DNA of 64,000 bases from Capsulimonas corticalis. GTDB lineage: Bacteria > Armatimonadota > Armatimonadia > Armatimonadales > Capsulimonadaceae. This document shows, one piece after another, positions 757 to 11,739 of this stretch (its first letter is position 1; each line of letters starts with the position of its first letter). The position numbers were made by a program, and so were the translations under genes. The notes under the pieces were generated by a model. The model was not told the origin of the DNA. It saw only the letters and a program-made list of their open reading frames with translations, and did not search any database. The DNA lies in the NCBI RefSeq assembly GCF_003574315.2, contig NZ_AP025739.1, forward strand, positions 806,001 to 870,000, read 5' to 3'.

Positions 757-2211
757 TCAGGCCGCCAGCGGCAGATCCGTCTGTTCCTCGCCGACCACGT
801 CCAGGAAGATTTCCGTGAGCGCGGGATCGAAGTGGGATCCGGCAAGCCCCCGGATATGCTCGCAGACGCGGTCGTGGGACCAGGCGCGCCGGTAGGGGCG
901 GTCGGAGCGCAGGGCGTCCCACACATCGACCAGGGCGAAGAGGCGGGCGGCGCGCGGGATCTCTTCGCCGCTGAGGCCGCAGGGATAGCCCGTGCCATCC
1001 CACTTTTCGTGATGGTAACGAGGAATGTCGAGCGCGGGCTCCAGAAACTCGATCGGCTGGAGCATCTGGACGGCGTATTCGGGATGCAGGCGCATGATCG
1101 CCCATTCGGATTCCGTCAGAGCTCCGGGCTTGAGCAGAATCTCATCCGGAATCCCCATCTTGCCGATATCGTGCAGCAGCGCGCCCTGACGCAGGGTATT
1201 CAGCTCGTCATCGTTCATGCCCAGCGCCTCCCCCATGCGCAGGGCCAGGTCGGTGACGCGGCGGCAATGGCCCTCCGTCTCGTGGTCGCGCATCTCCAGC
1301 GCGCGGCTCCAACCTTCAATGGTCGCGTTATAAGCGACCAGCAGCTCCGCCGTCCGCAGGTGGACGCGCTCCTCCAAATCGTTGTTGGTTTGCCGCAGCT
1401 CTTCATGGGCGCGGCGCAGGGCTTCAGCGGATGCGAGGCGCTCGGCGGACGCGGCCTGGGCGTTGCGCTGATAGCTGTAGACACAGATCGCGGCGCCCAG
1501 AGACATCAAGAGCGCCATGACGAAGCCGACCCAGAGCGCCCTCTGCAAATGCTCCAGATGCTTGAGATATTGAGTGGCGTTCATATCGACACCCACAATC
1601 CCCACCAGGCTCCCTTGCGAATCCCGCAACGGCGCATAGCCGCTCATGAAACTCCCCCACCGGTCAGGATAGACTTTCGAGTCGGAGCCGCCGATCCCGG
1701 TGCGCAGTGTTTCGATCATCGACTGCGGCGCTTCGGGGTACGCATCCATGATATGTGACTTGTCGTCCACCCCATCGCCGTTGGAGTCGCCGGCGGGAGT
1801 AGGATCGAGAATAAAGTACACTTTGTCCTGGCGCAGCACGCAGGTGTAGACGAACTTCATGTCGCCGCTCGCGGTGAGGATACGCGCCAGCGGGGCGATC
1901 GCGCGGCGATACTCCGGCGACGCCTCTTGCTCGGGCGAGACAAATTGTTTGTGCGCGTCCGCATCGACCACGGTCGCCGCCATGGCGGCCGTGCGGCTAA
2001 GCTCGGCGCGCATGCCGTCGAAGGCCGCGCGCTGAGCGCTGCAATAGAGCGCGACGCTGCTGACGCAGCTCGCCAGCAGCAGGACAACGCCCGCGAGCAA
2101 AGCCGCCTTGGCGGGCGCCATCGCCGTCAAGCCCCGCTTGATCCGCCGCCGCCGGTATTGGGAAGATTTGCTGGACAATTTATTCATGATCTTAGAGACG
2201 CGACGCGACAT
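757..2211 (-). CDS. Membrane sensor HD-GYP phosphodiesterase
   Basis: This 484-residue protein probably hydrolyses the second messenger c-di-GMP. It has an N-terminal membrane helix (about 30-55, after an Arg-rich stretch), a periplasmic Cache/CHASE-like sensor region (about 60-225), a second membrane helix (about 228-250), a short coiled coil, and an HD-GYP domain. Diagnostic motifs are 'LLHDIGKMGIPD', 'LHPEYAVQML' and 'YHHEKWDGTGYP' followed by GLSGEEIP. The metal-binding His and Asp residues and the GYP signature are intact, so activity is likely. It starts 5 bases after the stop of the upstream GGDEF gene, so the two opposing enzymes are probably co-transcribed. A second ATG nine codons in is a possible alternative start. 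Confidence 0.9.
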   Translation of the reverse strand: MSRRVSKIMNKLSSKSSQYRRRRIKRGLTAMAPAKAALLAGVVLLLASCVSSVALYCSAQRAAFDGMRAELSRTAAMAATVVDADAHKQFVSPEQEASPEYRRAIAPLARILTASGDMKFVYTCVLRQDKVYFILDPTPAGDSNGDGVDDKSHIMDAYPEAPQSMIETLRTGIGGSDSKVYPDRWGSFMSGYAPLRDSQGSLVGIVGVDMNATQYLKHLEHLQRALWVGFVMALLMSLGAAICVYSYQRNAQAASAERLASAEALRRAHEELRQTNNDLEERVHLRTAELLVAYNATIEGWSRALEMRDHETEGHCRRVTDLALRMGEALGMNDDELNTLRQGALLHDIGKMGIPDEILLKPGALTESEWAIMRLHPEYAVQMLQPIEFLEPALDIPRYHHEKWDGTGYPCGLSGEEIPRAARLFALVDVWDALRSDRPYRRAWSHDRVCEHIRGLAGSHFDPALTEIFLDVVGEEQTDLPLAA

Positions 2212-2216
2212 TGGCT

Positions 2217-3947
2217 TTAAGACGCTTTCCGGCGTTCGGAGATTGGGTCCATCTCCAGCGGAGCAGACTCGGCGACCTGTTTCGCCAGAACCACACGGTT
2301 TCTTCCCGCGCGTTTCGCTTCGTACAGCGCCTGATCCGCGCTGCTCACCAGCAGCTCCGGAGTTTCCTGGTCGGCGGAGCAGGCGGCGACTCCGATACTG
2401 ACGGTAATTTGCCGGTGCGCGAAGGCGTACGCCTCGATGGACGCGCGGACGCGCTCCGCCATCATTCGCGCGCCCTCCAGGTCGTTGAGCGGCAGCAGCA
2501 TCGCGAACTCCTCGCCGCCGTAACGCGCCACGATATCCGTATCCCGCGCGCCGGCCTCCAGCAGATGCGCCACGTCCTTGAGCACCGCGTCTCCCGCCGG
2601 ATGGCCGAAGGTATCGTTGTAATGTTTGAAGCGGTCGACATCCAGCAGCAGCAGCGCGAACGGCGCGCCGTAGCGCGCCGCGCGGGCGCAGGCTTCGCTC
2701 AGACGCTCGTAAAACACGCGATGGTTGACGAGCCCCGTCATGCCGTCGGTCATCGCCAGGCTTTCCAGCCGCTCATTGGCCGCCGCCAGCGATGCGTTCT
2801 TAAGCTCAATCGCTTCCTGCGCCTCCTGAAGATCCAGATACGCTGTTTGCAGGTCGCGGTTCAGCCTGGCGTTATCCAGAATCGCGGCGATCTGCCGGAA
2901 CAGCACCAGCACCACCAGCAGCGCCGCGCCGCCGTAGACGCCGTTCTCAAGCGTGGCCGGTCCCCGGCTCCGAATGCAGTAAACCACCAGACTGGCGACC
3001 ACGGGCAGCAGCGCATAGGGAAAGAGTGAGCGCCAGAGGGGGCCTTCCGCCCGGCGCGCTCCGTCCGCGCGCCGCAAAAACAGCTCATCCTCCGACGATT
3101 GCGGGCGCCGCAGCACGGTCGCCGCAAGCGCGATCAGTAGATACGCCAGCGGCCAAAAGATGTCCACGAGCTCGCCGGTCGCATAGGTCCCATGCAGCGT
3201 CTGATAGGCAAACACGACGTCCGCGATGACAATGCTGACAAACCCGCCCGCCAGAAGCGCGACTGCGGCGCTGGGAATCGTCCGGCGTTCCTGAACGGAG
3301 AGGATCAAGACGCAGCCCAGCAGGATCAGATCGCCAATCGGGTATTCGGCGCTCAGCGCCGCCGCGAGCAGGGTTTCATGGGACGCCAGCACAGTCGGCC
3401 CCAGCACAAAGTACCAGCTGAACGTGAGGATGGACGCCATGATCATCAGGCTGTCCAAAAATACGCGCAGACGCATCGCGGGCGAGATCGGGCGCGACGG
3501 CATCAAGAGGATGGCTGTCAGGAGCAGCGGGTGCTCCAGCACGTAAGCAATATCCGCCAGCGAGGGGAACGGCGTTTCCCGCTTGGCGATCACTTCGTAA
3601 TAGCACCAGATGCCCTCGCCGATCACATCCGCAAACGCCGCCAGCGCCAAAAACGTACAGGAAAGGCGAATGGCGCGGGCGCGCCGGCTTCCTTCTCCGC
3701 CCTCCGCGTTTCGGGACGCCCACAGGTCCCGAAACATCCATAACGCCGCCGCAAGCGGCGCCAGCACGCAGCTGCAGTTGTCGAAGACGACACGGCGCTC
3801 ATGGGAAATCCCCGGCAGGAGGAGCGCCAGCAAGAGCAGGCCGATATAGCTAACGGTAAAGATCAGCCGGCGGCGAAAGAGAGGACCTATGGTATTGGCG
3901 GGAGCATCCTCCAGCGTGATCGTATGCAAAGGAACAGCCTCACGCAT
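2217..3947 (-). CDS. Membrane-bound diguanylate cyclase (GGDEF)
   Basis: A 576-residue protein predicted to make c-di-GMP from two GTP. The first 340 residues form a polytopic membrane region of about nine or ten hydrophobic segments resembling MASE-type sensor domains, followed by a short coiled coil ('AYLDLQEAQEAIELKNASLAAANERL' region). The C-terminal GGDEF domain has the start signature 'LAMTDGMTGLVNHR', the substrate loop 'DVDRFKHYNDTFGHPAGD' and the active-site motif RYGGEEFAMLLP. No clear RxxD inhibitory site was checked in detail. Downstream it is nearly continuous with the HD-GYP gene; upstream only 27 bases separate it from the small membrane protein at 3975, so it may belong to the radical SAM/Lgt-like operon. 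Confidence 0.92.
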   Translation of the reverse strand: MREAVPLHTITLEDAPANTIGPLFRRRLIFTVSYIGLLLLALLLPGISHERRVVFDNCSCVLAPLAAALWMFRDLWASRNAEGGEGSRRARAIRLSCTFLALAAFADVIGEGIWCYYEVIAKRETPFPSLADIAYVLEHPLLLTAILLMPSRPISPAMRLRVFLDSLMIMASILTFSWYFVLGPTVLASHETLLAAALSAEYPIGDLILLGCVLILSVQERRTIPSAAVALLAGGFVSIVIADVVFAYQTLHGTYATGELVDIFWPLAYLLIALAATVLRRPQSSEDELFLRRADGARRAEGPLWRSLFPYALLPVVASLVVYCIRSRGPATLENGVYGGAALLVVLVLFRQIAAILDNARLNRDLQTAYLDLQEAQEAIELKNASLAAANERLESLAMTDGMTGLVNHRVFYERLSEACARAARYGAPFALLLLDVDRFKHYNDTFGHPAGDAVLKDVAHLLEAGARDTDIVARYGGEEFAMLLPLNDLEGARMMAERVRASIEAYAFAHRQITVSIGVAACSADQETPELLVSSADQALYEAKRAGRNRVVLAKQVAESAPLEMDPISERRKAS

Positions 3948-3974: not shown

Positions 3975-4253
3975 TTACCAGGGAAGCAAGAGCGTGCGAT
4001 GATGGGTGATCAGGAGGCCGATTTGCCAGACAAAGACCGCGCCCCAGAAGATCGTCACCCAGGGGGGCTTGGCCCAGCATCGCCATTCCCGAACGCCGCG
4101 CGCCGAGGCGAGGAGGTAAAAAACGGTCGCGAGACCGCTGAGGGCGAGGAGCGAATACTTTTGGAAGATCAGAACGAGAAAAGCGGCCTTGCAGAAAGTG
4201 AACGCCCAGCCTTCATATGCGCGGCCCTGGCGCTGGCGGTCCCATTCGCTCAT
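3975..4253 (-). CDS. Small membrane protein, last gene of the radical SAM cluster
   Basis: The 92-residue protein starts at ATG 4253, which overlaps the radical SAM stop codon as ATGA, so it is translationally coupled. It has two or three hydrophobic segments, 'FTFCKAAFLVLIFQKYSLLAL' (about 18-38) continuing to 'SGLATVFYLL' (about 39-48), and 'VTIFWGAVFVWQIGLLI' (about 66-82), with a Trp/Arg-rich loop in between. It ends with HHRTLLLPW. No enzyme motif is visible. The tight coupling suggests it is a membrane partner or scaffold of the radical SAM and Lgt-like enzymes. I do not recognise a family. Confidence 0.75.
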   Translation of the reverse strand: MSEWDRQRQGRAYEGWAFTFCKAAFLVLIFQKYSLLALSGLATVFYLLASARGVREWRCWAKPPWVTIFWGAVFVWQIGLLITHHRTLLLPW

Positions 4254-5698
4254 AACGGCGCGCCTTGGGTCACCATGGGAAGCGCGATGCCCGCCGCGCG
4301 GGGCCGGCGGCCGCGATGCAGAATATTGTATTCGCAAAACGAGATCGCTTCGCCAGTTTCCGTCAAGATCTTGGTGCAGCACTGATCGATGCGACGGCGA
4401 TCGTACGTATGGGCGTCCATGAACGGCTTGACCACGATCCGGAAGACGCGGCGGCCCATCTGTTCGGGCTTGCCAAGCAAGGGCAGGACATCGCGCAGGC
4501 CGCCGCGCATGAACAGGATCGCAAGGTCCCGCAGCGTGCGCGCGCCGCGCAGATGGACCGTGTCCGACCAGACACGCCGGGCCGCGCCGCCGATCACTCC
4601 GGCGAAGCTGATTCGATCGGAGAAGAGGTCTAGATACTGCGCGACGTCCAGGTGGCGCGGCAGCGGCGTGATCGTCTCGCGGCGGGCGTCGAGGAGGCCG
4701 TAGGTCAGCGCGCTGCAATCGGGGTGGCTGCACGGAAGCCCGACAAAATCCGAACGCCGCAGCGCGCCTCCCGTCTGCGCCTCCAGCAGCGCGATCACAT
4801 CCGTGAGCGTCAGGCGCTCCGGCGCGGCGTAGTCGTCATGCTCGTAGCGGCCGCTGCTCATCACGGGCTGGAAGTTCAGGCCGTTGACATGATCGTGCGC
4901 GAGGGCGTATCGATACAGATCGCCGATCTCGTCGTCGTTCACGCCGCGCTCCACGGTGGGGACCAGCGTGACAAAGAGCCCCGCCTCCCCGGCCTTCTGA
5001 AGCGCCAGCTCTTTTTCCGCGCGCAGATCGCGGCCATACAAACGCTCGTGCACGTCCGGGCGAAAACTGCTGAACGAAAAGAACAGTTCGACTTTGTCCC
5101 GGTGGCGAGACAGAGTCGCGCAGAGCGCATCGCTCTGCGCGATGCGCAGCCCATTGGTGTTGACCAGAATGCGCCCGATGGGATACTCCAGCGCCAGATC
5201 CAAAATCTCGGCGAACTGAGGATGGATCGTCGGCTCGCCGCCGCTGAGCATCAGGAGATCCAGCGCCGACTGCCGCCGAAAGAACTCATCCAGCCGCCGG
5301 CGCGCTTCGTCGACCGTCATGAAGTCGTGACCATGCGCGTCGGCGTAGCAGGTCGGGCAGCGCAGGTTGCAGGCCAGGGTGATTTCCAGCAATAACACGC
5401 AAACGGGAGGTCCGGAGTTCGGATCGCACACCGTGTCCCCGCCGCAGCACCCGCCCCCGACGCGCGCGGGCACATACTGGCGCAGGCGGCGATACTCCCC
5501 CGCATCCGAAGCAAGCAGCGCGCGGCTCGCGCCGTGGCGCGGGCAAACGCTCTCCATCCAGACCCGCCCGCCGTGCTCCGTCAAGACTGCGGGAATATCA
5601 CGCAGGCATTGCGGGCAGAGGCTTTGCGTCTCCTCGGTCCAGGGCGCATCCGACCCCGCCGCCATCGTCTCTGGATTGTCCACGCCGGTTGGTTTCAT
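4250..5698 (-). CDS. Radical SAM enzyme with extra Cys centres, Tes/MJ0619-like
   Basis: I start at ATG 5698, which overlaps the zinc-ribbon gene stop as ATGA; the longer open frame upstream is only the shadow of that gene. The 482-residue protein has an N-terminal Cys-rich part (C28-P-Q-C31, C52 in 'VCPRHG', C84/C85, C91, C100), the radical SAM motif 'CNLRCPTC' (C110, C114, C117) and 'SGGEPTIHP'. Its C-terminal part has 'PCSHPDC' and 'CCTKILTETGEAISFCEYN'. The CPxC/CPxHG start, the aux-cluster cysteines and the FCxYN ending resemble the group containing tetraether lipid synthase (Tes) and MJ0619, which act on unactivated or pterin carbons. The Lgt-like neighbour favours a lipid substrate. 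Family membership is well supported; the substrate is inference. Confidence 0.85.
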   Translation of the reverse strand: MKPTGVDNPETMAAGSDAPWTEETQSLCPQCLRDIPAVLTEHGGRVWMESVCPRHGASRALLASDAGEYRRLRQYVPARVGGGCCGGDTVCDPNSGPPVCVLLLEITLACNLRCPTCYADAHGHDFMTVDEARRRLDEFFRRQSALDLLMLSGGEPTIHPQFAEILDLALEYPIGRILVNTNGLRIAQSDALCATLSRHRDKVELFFSFSSFRPDVHERLYGRDLRAEKELALQKAGEAGLFVTLVPTVERGVNDDEIGDLYRYALAHDHVNGLNFQPVMSSGRYEHDDYAAPERLTLTDVIALLEAQTGGALRRSDFVGLPCSHPDCSALTYGLLDARRETITPLPRHLDVAQYLDLFSDRISFAGVIGGAARRVWSDTVHLRGARTLRDLAILFMRGGLRDVLPLLGKPEQMGRRVFRIVVKPFMDAHTYDRRRIDQCCTKILTETGEAISFCEYNILHRGRRPRAAGIALPMVTQGAPL

Positions 5699-6216
5699 AA
5701 GTTCTTCAGACTGGTGAGGCAGGCGACGAGCGCGCCCAGGGCCAGCAGGATCGTCAGCGCGACGCCAATTCCCATGCCCTGGGTGAAGGCGCGGTGCTTT
5801 CGGTTGAGCGCCAGGAATGTGATGGGAATCGCCAGGATCCCAATACCGCCCAGCATGAGCGTCAGGGGCACGAAAAGGAATCCCAAGATCCCGTCCACGA
5901 TCTTGTTGCCGGTGATCAGTTTTTGTTCGGGCGCGGCCGGAGGGATCCGTCCCATTGCCGAATTCCATGGCTCCGATTGGACCGGCGAGACCCGCGCGCC
6001 GCAGTTGGGGCAGATCGGCTGAAATCGCGGCAATTGCAGGCCGCAGTTGGAGCAATGCCCCGCCATCGTCATGGGGTTCGGAGCGTCGCCCGGAATTGGC
6101 GGCGGCGGGGCGGGCGGAACGATCGAAAGCTCCAGGCCACAGCGCGGGCAATGGGTTTCCATTCCCTGGAGCTCCAGACCACAGCCGGGACAGGCGCTGG
6201 AATGACTCATGGTCAT
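5695..6216 (-). CDS. Zinc-ribbon protein with two C-terminal membrane helices
   Basis: The start at ATG 6216 overlaps the stop of the Lgt-like gene (ATGA), giving 173 residues. The N-terminal half has two double-Cys zinc ribbons: 'CPGCGLEL ... CPRCGLEL' (about 8-30) and 'CSNCGLQL ... CPNCGARV' (about 53-77), separated by a Pro-rich linker. After a further linker come two membrane segments, 'ILGFLFVPLTLMLGGIGILAI' (about 108-128) and 'GVALTILLALGALVACL' (about 148-166). Such zinc-ribbon membrane proteins often act as assembly or regulatory partners. Both its start and its stop are coupled to neighbouring genes, so it probably works with the Lgt-like and radical SAM enzymes. Specific function unknown. 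Confidence 0.85.
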   Translation of the reverse strand: MTMSHSSACPGCGLELQGMETHCPRCGLELSIVPPAPPPPIPGDAPNPMTMAGHCSNCGLQLPRFQPICPNCGARVSPVQSEPWNSAMGRIPPAAPEQKLITGNKIVDGILGFLFVPLTLMLGGIGILAIPITFLALNRKHRAFTQGMGIGVALTILLALGALVACLTSLKNL

Positions 6217-6920
6217 GACTGAGCGCCTCCCGTCGCCACGATCAGCCGCGCGGGAGCCAGCAGACGCTGGAGCTTGACGGCGAAAAAGACAAAGCCGGCG
6301 GCGCACGCCCACTGCGCCGCCGTGAGGCCGAGCGCCAACACGCTTCCTTCGCGAAAGAACTCAATCGCGAACCGCGCCGCGCAGTAGAGCGCGCCTTGCA
6401 GGAAGAACAGCGTATTCTCCGGCGGCCGCTTGCGGTCGCACCAGAGCAAGATCGCCAGGATGACGGCGTTCGCGGCGCTCAGATAGATCTGCGTCGGGTG
6501 ACGCATGGCCCCGTGCCCCCAGATCCCCCAGGGCTCATTTGTCGGCTTCCCATAACAGCAGCCGGCGAAGTAACAGCCCCAGCGCCCGACCGCCTCGCCG
6601 GCGCTCAGCGCCACGGCGAACAAGTCTCCCGTCGGACGCCGGATTCCCAAAGAGCGCTTGCAGACCATCGCCGCGAGATAACCGCCGGCCAGCGCCCCCA
6701 GCACCGACTTGCCGTCCGACCCGGCCACGATCCACTGGGCGATGTGCGCTCCGACCAGTCCGCCGAGCGCTCCCGCCATCATCACGATCGCCATGCCGCT
6801 CGTGGCGAGCTTGCGGCGGCGCGCCATCCCCATCCACGCGGCCAATCCTACGCCATACCCCAGGGCGTAGCATCCGCTCGCGGGCGTCCATGAGACCCAA
6901 TTTTGCAGCATTGAGAGCAT
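6213..6920 (-). CDS. Lgt-like membrane transferase (prolipoprotein diacylglyceryl transferase family)
   Basis: A polytopic membrane protein of the Lgt family, whose founding member moves diacylglycerol from phosphatidylglycerol to lipoprotein cysteines. I prefer ATG 6920 because GGAGACAAG precedes it; ATG 6938 is an alternative. The conserved signature region reads 'GRWGCYFAGCCYGKPT', followed by 'HPTQIY' and 'RFAIEFFREGS', so the arginine, histidine and glutamate positions typical of Lgt are kept. The GR motif, however, carries three cysteines (GCYFAGCC) instead of the usual GNFxN. This marks a divergent paralog class rather than housekeeping Lgt. It is the first gene of a four-gene ATGA-coupled set with a Tes-like radical SAM enzyme, so a lipid headgroup or lipid-anchoring reaction is plausible. 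Confidence 0.82.
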   Translation of the reverse strand: MLSMLQNWVSWTPASGCYALGYGVGLAAWMGMARRRKLATSGMAIVMMAGALGGLVGAHIAQWIVAGSDGKSVLGALAGGYLAAMVCKRSLGIRRPTGDLFAVALSAGEAVGRWGCYFAGCCYGKPTNEPWGIWGHGAMRHPTQIYLSAANAVILAILLWCDRKRPPENTLFFLQGALYCAARFAIEFFREGSVLALGLTAAQWACAAGFVFFAVKLQRLLAPARLIVATGGAQS

Positions 6921-6938
6921 CTTGTCTCCATTATACAT

Positions 6939-9505: not shown

Positions 9506-11677
9506 TCACAGCGCGGCTTGCGGCGAATGTTCCAGGGAGGAGAGATCGGCTTCTTCCTTGAGCAGCACGCCGGAGAGCTGGCGGCGGCGGGATTCTTGCA
9601 TCAGGTAGAGAAGGCGGGCGGCGGCGATGGGGTATGGGAGGCCTTCGGGGCGGATGTTGGAGAGGCAGTTGCGCTGGGAGTCGGCGGTGGCGGCGTGGGC
9701 TTGCCAGGTGAGGTAGACGCCGAGGGAGTCGGGCGTGGTGAGGCCGGGGCGTTCGCCGATGAGGACGACGACCATGTCGGCGCGGAGGGCTTCGGCGACG
9801 GCGTCGCCGACCGCGACGCGGCCTTGTTGGACGAGGACGGCGGGCCCGATGCGCCAGTCGGATTGGCGGAGCGTGGGGAGGACGGCCTGAAGCAAGGGCG
9901 CGGAGTGGCGGTTCGCGGCGGTGGCGCTGAGGCCGTCGGCGATGACGAACACGATGTCCCAGTTCTTGGGCTGGTCGGCGAGCAGGCCGAGCGACGGGGC
10001 GCTCAGGCGGCGGCCCAGGTCGGGGCGCTGGATGTATTCAGAGCGGTCGGCGGCTTCGCTATGCAGGCGAATCGTCTCCAGGCCAAGTTCGGCGAGGCCC
10101 GCCTGTAAACTCTCCGTATCCAGCGGAGATCCAACGGCGTCGCGGGCCTGGGCGTGGTCCCACTGGAAATCGAGATGGTCGCCGGTCGGCTGCGATACTC
10201 CGGTTGGGGCGACGCCGATCCGGGCCGGCGTGAACTCGCGCAGGCGCGTCCAGACGGACGCGGGGGCTAGCGAAGTTCCGACGGGGGCGATCTCGTGGAG
10301 CGCCTCCAGCATCGGGCTGTCCGCGCGCGACCCCGTCAGCCGCTGATGCCGACCCTGAGCGTCAAAGATCCCCATTCGCTCCAGCCACGCTTCGAACTCG
10401 GGCGCCGGGCGCTTTCCCAAAATGCGGCGGACGTAAAGGGCGTCGTGGAACGAAGTGCTCTGGTAGTTGAGCATGATGTCGTCCGCGCCGGGGACGCCCA
10501 TGATAAACGTGCAGCCGGCGGCGGCGATCAGCGTGAGCAGGACATCCATGTCGTCCTGGTCGGCCTCGGCGTGATTGGTGTAACAAACGTCGCAGCCCAT
10601 CGGCAGGCCGAGCAGCTTGCCGGCGCAGTGGTCCTCTAATCCCGCCCGGATGATCTGCTTGCCGTTAAAAAGATATTCGGGACCGATGAAGCCGACCACC
10701 GTGTTGACGAGCAGCGGCGAAAAGGCGCGCGCGACGGCGTAGGCGCGGCACTCCAACGTCTGCTGATCGACGCCGTGGTGCGCGTCCGCCGAAAGCGCGC
10801 TCCCCTGCCCCGTCTCGAAGTACATGACGTTGTCGCCGACCGAGCCGCGCCCCAGCGCCAGCGCCATCTCGTGCGCTTCGCGCAGCATCGTGAGGTTAAC
10901 GCCAAAGCCCTGGTTGGCGGCCTCCGTGCCGGCGACCGATTGGAAGACCAGATCGATCGGCGCGCCCCGCTCCATCGCCTGCATCGCGTTCGTGACATGG
11001 GTCAGCACGCACGACTGCACGGGCATGTCGAAACGCCGGCGCATCTCGTCCAGCATCTCGACCAAACGGATACAGGCGTCCACGTTGTCCGTCGCCGGGT
11101 TGATCCCAATCACCGCGTCGCCGCCGCCGAGCAGCAGGCCGTCCAAGAGACTGGCGGCCACGCCGCGCGGATCGTCGGTGGGATGGTTGGGCTGCACGCG
11201 CGTGGAAAGGCGTCCTTCCAGGCCGAGGGTATTGCGAAACCGCGTGACAACGCGGCATTTGGCCCCGACCGCCACCAGATCCTGCACGCGCATGATCTTG
11301 GTGACAGCGGCGGCCATCTCCGGCGTGATCCCCGGCGCCAGCCGCGCGAGGGCGTCGGCGTCCGCATCATCGGACAGCAGCCAGTCCCGAAAACCGCCCA
11401 CCGTCAAATGCGCGATCGGCGCGAACGCGGCCGCGTCATGCGTATCCACGATCAGCCGCGTGACTTCGTCGCTCTCATACGGGACGACCGCGCACGACAA
11501 AAACTCCGTGAGGCGTGTCTCCGCCAGCGCCATCTGCGCGGCCACCCGCTCCTGCGCGCTTTGGGCGGCGACACCCGCCAGCGCATCCCCCGACCGCAGC
11601 GGAGTCGCCTTCGCAAGCAGCGTCTTCAAATCGGAAAACGTATAAACGCCGCCGCCCACCGTATGCCGATATGTCAT
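9506..11677 (-). CDS. eutBC: Fused ethanolamine ammonia-lyase (EutB-EutC)
   Basis: This protein deaminates ethanolamine to acetaldehyde and ammonia using adenosylcobalamin. I start at ATG 11677 (GGGAG nearby), giving 723 residues. The first ~465 are the EutB barrel subunit ('YTFSDLKTLLAKA' start, 'RVQPNHPTDDPRG', 'GLLLGGGDAVIGINPATDN', 'FETGQGSALSADAHHGVDQQT', 'MGCDVCYTNHAEADQDD'). From ~475 to the end is a complete EutC subunit ('ARIGVAPTG', 'DHAQARDAVG', 'VIADGLSATAANRHS', 'LSNIRPEGLPY'). The two subunits are normally separate genes; here they are joined in one frame with no visible frameshift. No eutA reactivase, EutR or microcompartment shell gene is nearby. It sits at the end of the amine/amide catabolism island. 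Confidence 0.93.
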   Translation of the reverse strand: MTYRHTVGGGVYTFSDLKTLLAKATPLRSGDALAGVAAQSAQERVAAQMALAETRLTEFLSCAVVPYESDEVTRLIVDTHDAAAFAPIAHLTVGGFRDWLLSDDADADALARLAPGITPEMAAAVTKIMRVQDLVAVGAKCRVVTRFRNTLGLEGRLSTRVQPNHPTDDPRGVAASLLDGLLLGGGDAVIGINPATDNVDACIRLVEMLDEMRRRFDMPVQSCVLTHVTNAMQAMERGAPIDLVFQSVAGTEAANQGFGVNLTMLREAHEMALALGRGSVGDNVMYFETGQGSALSADAHHGVDQQTLECRAYAVARAFSPLLVNTVVGFIGPEYLFNGKQIIRAGLEDHCAGKLLGLPMGCDVCYTNHAEADQDDMDVLLTLIAAAGCTFIMGVPGADDIMLNYQSTSFHDALYVRRILGKRPAPEFEAWLERMGIFDAQGRHQRLTGSRADSPMLEALHEIAPVGTSLAPASVWTRLREFTPARIGVAPTGVSQPTGDHLDFQWDHAQARDAVGSPLDTESLQAGLAELGLETIRLHSEAADRSEYIQRPDLGRRLSAPSLGLLADQPKNWDIVFVIADGLSATAANRHSAPLLQAVLPTLRQSDWRIGPAVLVQQGRVAVGDAVAEALRADMVVVLIGERPGLTTPDSLGVYLTWQAHAATADSQRNCLSNIRPEGLPYPIAAARLLYLMQESRRRQLSGVLLKEEADLSSLEHSPQAAL

Positions 11678-11739
11678 GACGATCTCCCGCTTTCGAACCG
11701 CTCGCATTTCACAAAAAGCTTAGCTGGCCTTCGCTTCGA

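Follow-up and report, generated by a model that had tools for sequence, protein, structure and literature searches.

GDGT-MAS/Tes, a radical S-adenosylmethionine (SAM) enzyme, has been described in terms of its cluster ligands and an active site that holds lipid tails (PMC9433317). In Lgt of Escherichia coli, the bound lipid is surrounded by Arg143 and Arg239, and mutagenesis found Arg143, Arg239, and His103 to be critical; Mao et al. reported that five of five His103 substitutions failed to complement and that three of three Arg143 mutants were inactive (PMC4728403). An Lgt-like enzyme has also been predicted to lipidate the C-terminal Cys of MYXO-CTERM proteins (PMC11980579). Bacterial Tes homologues may make branched glycerol dialkyl glycerol tetraethers (brGDGTs), as suggested without proof by Zeng et al. 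(PMC8941075) and in a Black Sea study (PMC11868695), and the membrane-spanning lipids of Bacillota have been ascribed to Mss, for which a Tes-like architecture and a lipid substrate are proposed (PMC13274423). Here, we describe a four-gene operon of Capsulimonas corticalis (Armatimonadota) in which relatives of Lgt and Tes are encoded together. It lies in a window of 64,000 nucleotides (contig NZ_AP025739.1, positions 806,001 to 870,000) of a 7.6-Mb single-contig genome and encodes an Lgt paralogue, a zinc-ribbon membrane protein (P0002), a radical SAM enzyme of the Tes/TrsS superfamily (P0003), and a small membrane protein (P0004). The best explanation is that the operon represents a membrane-modification module that exists widely and in several versions; by sequence, many bacteria encode together a Tes-superfamily radical SAM enzyme, an Lgt paralogue, and one or more small membrane proteins whose Cys is at the predicted outer end of a transmembrane helix. 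New here are this conserved helix-end Cys in a fast-evolving zinc-ribbon protein and its counterparts beside the Lgt/radical SAM pair. A literature search, within its limits, found no paper that connects homologues of Lgt to radical SAM genes.

Homologues of P0003 (E < 1e-30) are present in 49 of 291 Armatimonadota genomes, and all 39 Armatimonadota genomes that have an Lgt paralogue above the canonical Lgt band belong to these 49, the separation from that band being tight (lower edge at 156.4 versus 156.3 bits). The gene order of the window (Lgt, zinc ribbon, radical SAM, P0004) is replaced in another lineage of the phylum by radical SAM, Lgt, ribbon protein, and a P0004-like gene. A third type (L049, L053, L065, L066, and others) has a gene for an ICMT-like methyltransferase (PF04140, 47 bits) between the radical SAM and Lgt genes and lacks P0004; this type excepted, the coding families retained near the radical SAM gene in Armatimonadota are chiefly the four of the operon. 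The initial annotation had asked whether the four genes are neighbors in related genomes; they are grouped across Armatimonadota relatives in two gene orders, and the operon arrangement is thus more than chance. The ICMT-like gene (L053:5911-6600, also in L049, L058, L065, L066, and L069) is accompanied by LALGAC-type proteins, which are in tandem in L053, L066, and L069.

A wider scan yielded 84 loci, that is, the best 80 from 84,980 species genomes plus four plasmid records. An Lgt-like gene is visible in 69 of the 84, always on the same strand as the radical SAM gene (69/69), with a median gap of 111 bp between the matched parts; many of the loci without a visible Lgt gene are cut by contig ends. 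The pair exists in at least nine phyla (Bacteroidota, Bacillota, Planctomycetota, Actinomycetota, Acidobacteriota, Pseudomonadota, Chloroflexota, Melainabacteria, and Armatimonadota), and its cultured carriers include Paenibacillus, Flavobacterium, and Chitinophaga, which, to our knowledge, are not known for membrane-spanning lipids. One plasmid that carries the pair is the 344-kb pS2b of Mycobacterium avium (L077), which is typed as mobilizable.

The Lgt-linked radical SAM proteins fall into a single clade that excludes Tes and the Lgt-free relatives (support of 92 in the Shimodaira-Hasegawa-like approximate likelihood ratio test, not starred, with long outgroup branches), and the true Lgt-free loci (L076, L080, L085, L090, L114, and L118) group outside it. 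The radical SAM gene is followed by a methyltransferase gene in at least L076 and L080, and several of L076, L080, L085, L090, and L118 are near pyridine-nucleotide disulfide oxidoreductases; the proteins of these five loci are possibly TrsS-like.

The small Cys proteins of the module change rapidly around one fixed residue. P0002 ends in ...GVALTILLALGALVA-C-LTSLKNL, so that its last helix closes with LVA-Cys and a seven-residue tail follows. Within the genus, identity is 50% for P0002, 91% for the radical SAM enzyme, 87% for P0004, and 76% for the Lgt paralogue, and P0002 has no BLAST match in some genomes of the same order; its Cys is kept within the genus. All nine loci of the window clade encode at least one ribbon protein with a Cys 6 to 11 residues from the end, closing a hydrophobic helix, and this Cys is kept in 11 of the 12 ribbon proteins beside the pair. 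Outside Armatimonadota, the equivalent position is taken by small proteins that also carry the helix-end Cys (FGSC, LSTC, LGIC, GAGAC, and NAAC) and are frequently encoded by two to four genes in tandem (L124, L157, L144, L109, and L096). Constant enzymes beside fast-changing, multicopy small proteins with one fixed residue look like enzymes with their modified substrates.

Among open reading frames (ORFs) with a hydrophobic tail, the C-terminal helix-end Cys was found in 95 of 198 near the pair versus 12 of 166 distant ones from these loci (Fisher test, 8e-19). A second form, in which the first helix of a two-helix hairpin carries the Cys at its outer end, was found in 42 of 104 near versus 4 of 43 far ORFs (p = 1.6e-4); both definitions were adjusted after a first look (first version, 76/201 near versus 12/211 far), so that these p-values are descriptive. 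Either form is seen in 85 of 99 Lgt-positive loci. Net positive charge precedes the helix in 85% and follows the Cys in 29%, a pattern that, by the positive-inside rule, predicts the Cys to be outside, where the Lgt active site opens. The residue at -1 of the Cys (n = 95) is Ala in 30, Ile in 17, Val in 14, Leu in 13, and Thr in 8; because about half of these proteins have a hydrophobic residue larger than Ala there, and a third have Ala itself, most are not expected to be cleaved by signal peptidase II. P0002 itself reads LVAC, yet at its C terminus. The helix-end Cys, which the initial annotation did not report, points to a putative lipid anchor on a small protein over a bulk lipid.

Beyond the ribbons of P0002, searches of Pfam and NCBIfam gave nothing convincing for the small proteins of the module: the membrane part of P0002 has no convincing Pfam match and P0004 belongs to no Pfam or NCBIfam family. 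P0004 has two conserved motifs, AFxFCK and Cys...Pro...FW, and a profile search placed it beside the Lgt/radical SAM pair in Armatimonadota, in one Chloroflexota metagenome-assembled genome, and in one Clostridia contig. A phage origin was rejected, its sole support being a weak 22-residue match of P0004 in viral contigs.

The Lgt-like protein passes PF01790 (99.5 bits; gathering score, 24.9) but is far below every NCBIfam Lgt equivalog cutoff. Its structure model, built like that of P0003 from alignments without rows from plasmid records, aligns to E. coli Lgt (5AZB) with a Z score of 17.8 over 213 residues (next match, 7.1), and a family profile of the paralogues finds 5AZB at 1e-18, which was the basis for residue mapping. 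In E. coli numbering, Arg143 (R119), Arg239 (R189), Glu243 (E193), and Gly154 (G130) are kept; both arginines are invariant in 98 alignable copies, in which position 243 is Glu or Asp. His103 is Leu80 in the window and is His in none of the 98 copies (Leu, Val, Met, Ile, or Phe instead). The alignable paralogues have the catalytic-site arginines of Lgt and lack the essential histidine. A separate canonical Lgt with His103 is encoded elsewhere in the genome, and PF01790 matches at least two places in each of 16 carrier genomes from other groups, a few of these being split pieces of one gene. The initial annotation called the enzyme a divergent Lgt-like transferase. The divergence does not lie in the Cys-rich signature of the enzyme, GCxxxGCCYG, which the canonical Lgt of the genome carries too; an invariant Cys at the Asn146 position, considered as a special feature, was dropped on the same ground. 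On the alignment, the diagnostic change is the loss of His103.

The absence of this histidine from every alignable paralogue would fit a membrane complex of the Lgt paralogue and the radical SAM enzyme in which the small proteins have a structural or redox part and the Cys binds a partner or a metal, with neither lipidation nor chemistry on lipid tails. P0002 carries metal-binding ribbons and P0004 likewise has conserved Cys residues, as such a complex might have, but the phosphatidylglycerol-site arginines, invariant in 98 copies, suggest retained lipid handling, and we regard the complex as unlikely. An Lgt fold with intact phosphatidylglycerol arginines beside a helix-end Cys suggests S-lipidation at an unusual place.

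The closest solved relative of P0003 is GDGT-MAS (1.7e-50; next, MoaA at 2.5e-5). The family profile agrees (1.2e-114 versus 2.8e-14 for the next), as does the structure model, which aligns to GDGT-MAS (7TOM) with a Z score of 43.6 over 418 residues, the next protein scoring 20.5. The closest characterized homologue is therefore a lipid enzyme, a point on which the initial annotation had let its proposal depend. Together with the neighborhood of the genes in relatives, this makes a role on lipids or lipid anchors reasonable. However, P0003 misses the cutoffs of both curated families, TrsS (NF045646; 235.9 bits, cutoff of 490) and Tes (NF045702; 192.5 bits, cutoff of 450). It has an HMPTM-type N-terminal ribbon, a CX3CX2C core motif, and a Tes-like C-terminal Cys set. 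We mapped the published ligands (PMC9433317) onto an alignment that includes a true Tes, L162 (Thorarchaeota, 636 bits), in which almost all proteins have the ribbon CX2C...CX2H and the SAM cluster. Of the N-terminal [4Fe-4S] ligands (C73, C77, C80, and a His in Tes), the window clade has lost position 77 and the His; this cluster is also lost in a related lineage of Armatimonadota that has families f15 and f30 (tentatively called Fimbriimonadia-type), and its motif is retained in most other Lgt-linked phyla. In Tes, Tyr459 is reported to be strictly conserved among about 1,000 archaeal homologues. It is Ile or Leu in the window clade; the other Lgt-linked proteins have chiefly Ile, Val, His, Thr, or Ser there, the only Tyr of the Lgt-linked group being in one of nine B-type rows, a row set that includes loci without a visible Lgt gene. 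The window clade has the Cys residues of the C-terminal auxiliary cluster and Lys at Met439, and the C-cluster ligands are lost in many Lgt-linked members outside it. P0003 is thus closest to GDGT-MAS/Tes but, as judged from the loss of the catalytic Tyr459, Met439, and the N-terminal cluster ligands and from scores below the Tes and TrsS cutoffs, not Tes. A defense function was rejected, since the only matches were to viperin models through the shared radical SAM core.

The same data bear on what the radical enzyme might act on. With GDGT-MAS as the closest characterized enzyme, bacterial Tes homologues proposed as brGDGT makers (PMC8941075; PMC11868695), and the C-terminal cluster Cys residues kept in the window clade, the module could make a free membrane lipid: the radical SAM enzyme would join or alkylate lipid tails to give membrane-spanning or branched lipids, the Lgt paralogue would move diacylglycerol between lipids, and the small proteins would be a scaffold. 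We give this a low probability, considering that Tyr459, Met439, and the N-terminal cluster are missing in the window clade and the C-cluster ligands in many Lgt-linked members elsewhere, that membrane-spanning lipids of Bacillota have been ascribed to another enzyme, Mss (PMC13274423), that two acidobacterial genomes (L163 and L164) have a separate Tes-like protein besides the Lgt-linked one, and that the conserved helix-end Cys is left unexplained. Maturation of a membrane peptide would account for multicopy, fast-evolving small proteins beside conserved enzymes, and for TrsS, not Tes, being the best NCBIfam match; the radical SAM enzyme would first modify the small Cys proteins, in the manner of peptide maturases, and the Lgt paralogue would then anchor them, the radical substrate not being lipid tails. 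The maturases SuiB and SkfB do come after GDGT-MAS in the fold list of P0003, tied with MoaA, but they match mainly the core domain (Z of about 20 versus 43.6), a Pfam scan reported no leader-binding or SPASM family, and the small proteins are multipass membrane proteins, which leaves such maturation rather improbable as well.

The reading that we prefer, tentatively and as possible rather than probable, is lipidation of the helix-end Cys by the Lgt paralogue, with the radical enzyme acting afterwards on the lipid or on the helix. The Lgt paralogue would move a diacylglyceryl group from phosphatidylglycerol onto the helix-end Cys of a small protein (P0002 here), which, mostly uncleaved by signal peptidase II, would stay multipass and lipid tailed; the radical SAM enzyme would then perform radical chemistry on the lipid tail of the anchor or on the Cys-bearing helix, and P0004 may be a helper subunit specific to one sublineage. 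Beyond the observed gene linkage, folds, residue conservation, and motif enrichment, we infer the acceptor, the donor, the order of the steps, the radical chemistry, and the role of P0004. The earlier proposal of a system that modifies lipids or lipid anchors is partly supported in its general form through the nearest relative, the linked genes, and the helix-end Cys, and its Tes-specific form is weakened by the lost Tyr459, Met439, and N-terminal cluster and by the missed Tes and TrsS cutoffs.

Several points weigh against lipidation followed by a radical step. The loss of His103 may mean that transferase activity is lost, and the role of the helix-end Cys could be redox or structural. The Cys is predicted to face outward, whereas the radical SAM enzyme is cytoplasmic. 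In L035, the Cys is absent from one of the three ribbon proteins encoded in tandem, and 14 of the 99 Lgt-positive loci have no such Cys protein under the rules used. The enrichment is not a formal test because the signature was sharpened post hoc and the loci are related, and spurious ORFs are among those counted in GC-rich loci. Furthermore, the helix-end Cys motif departs at -1 from the classical lipobox, [LVI][ASTVI][GAS]C, which has a small residue there for signal peptidase II, and it is C-terminal instead of N-terminal. A bolder form of the proposal, a second lipoprotein pathway in at least nine phyla in which acyl chains attached to a Cys by the Lgt paralogue are coupled or remodeled by the Tes-family enzyme into a membrane-spanning or cross-linked lipid anchor, seems to us very unlikely.

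If the Cys is lipidated, the module would add a second pathway of the Lgt type, one that includes a new radical step and occurs in easily grown bacteria; it would also serve as a model of how lipids could be attached to helix-linked cysteines outside classical lipoproteins. Environmental surveys count bacterial Tes homologues as possible brGDGT producers; because the Lgt-linked homologues are a separate clade, such counts may mislead paleoclimate work. Granulicella and Chloracidobacterium genomes carry both an Lgt-linked radical SAM enzyme and a Tes-like protein (L164 and L163, respectively), so that counting both as Tes would mix two things. Against the Tes model, the Tes-like proteins score 318 (L163) and 315 bits (L164); they retain Met439 and Tyr459, lack the N-terminal cluster motif, and appear to be better brGDGT candidates than the Lgt-linked enzyme.

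In the window, the four minus-strand genes and the three ATGA overlaps that join them (6216-6213, 5698-5695, and 4253-4250), as described in the initial annotation, were all located in the raw sequence (Table 1). The Lgt-like gene more likely starts at its downstream ATG than at the upstream one because GGAG precedes the former, whereas the upstream ATG overlaps a TATAAT, through which the first six residues (MYNGDK) are read, and residues 1 to 19 are unfolded or of low confidence in the structure model. Promoter and terminator scans gave nothing useful above shuffled sequences. The operon is immediately followed on its own strand (757-3947, minus) by an HD-domain gene and a gene for a membrane GGDEF diguanylate cyclase. 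Elsewhere in the window (9506-11707, minus), a single 733-residue protein fuses the large and small subunits of ethanolamine ammonia-lyase (EutB, 727 bits; EutC, 297 bits), which are normally encoded by two genes.

Table 1. Genes of the operon, in window positions
Feature	Position	Strand	Evidence or remark
Lgt-like gene	6938-6213	minus	PF01790; ATG at 6920 is the probable true start
P0002, double zinc-ribbon and transmembrane protein	6216-5695	minus	PF12773, 34 bits, for the ribbons
P0003, radical SAM enzyme of the Tes/TrsS superfamily	5698-4250	minus	Profiles, structure model, ligand map
P0004, small membrane protein	4253-3975	minus	Profile matches beside the Lgt/radical SAM pair in relatives

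Compared with known systems, the paralogue resembles Lgt (PF01790, 5AZB) in its fold, in Arg143, Gly154, Arg239, and Glu243, and in GCxxxGCCYG, and differs from it by the replacement of His103, by scores below the cutoffs, and by being a second gene beside a canonical Lgt. P0003 shares with GDGT-MAS/Tes (MJ0619; PDB 7TOL/7TOM) the whole-length fold with the N-terminal ribbon and C-terminal domain, the rubredoxin-type CX2C...CX2H, the CX3CX2C motif, and, as far as the window clade is concerned, the Cys residues of the C-terminal cluster, whereas it is only about 28% identical, has lost Tyr459, Met439, and the N-terminal [4Fe-4S] motif, and is linked to an Lgt paralogue. TrsS, a radical SAM (seleno)protein, gives the best NCBIfam score of P0003 with an end-to-end match, but that score is below the cutoff of 490, and the Lgt-free relatives, some with methyltransferase neighbors, fall outside the Lgt-linked clade. 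Mss, compared by description alone, is alike in its proposed Tes-like architecture and lipid substrate, and the accessible part of its published description contains no link to Lgt (PMC13274423). Finally, the MYXO-CTERM/myxosortase system likewise has a C-terminal helix and an invariant Cys; however, its Cys lies ahead of the helix, and the C terminus is Arg rich, whereas here the order is charge, helix, Cys, and, usually, a short tail, and no protease was seen among the conserved neighbors.

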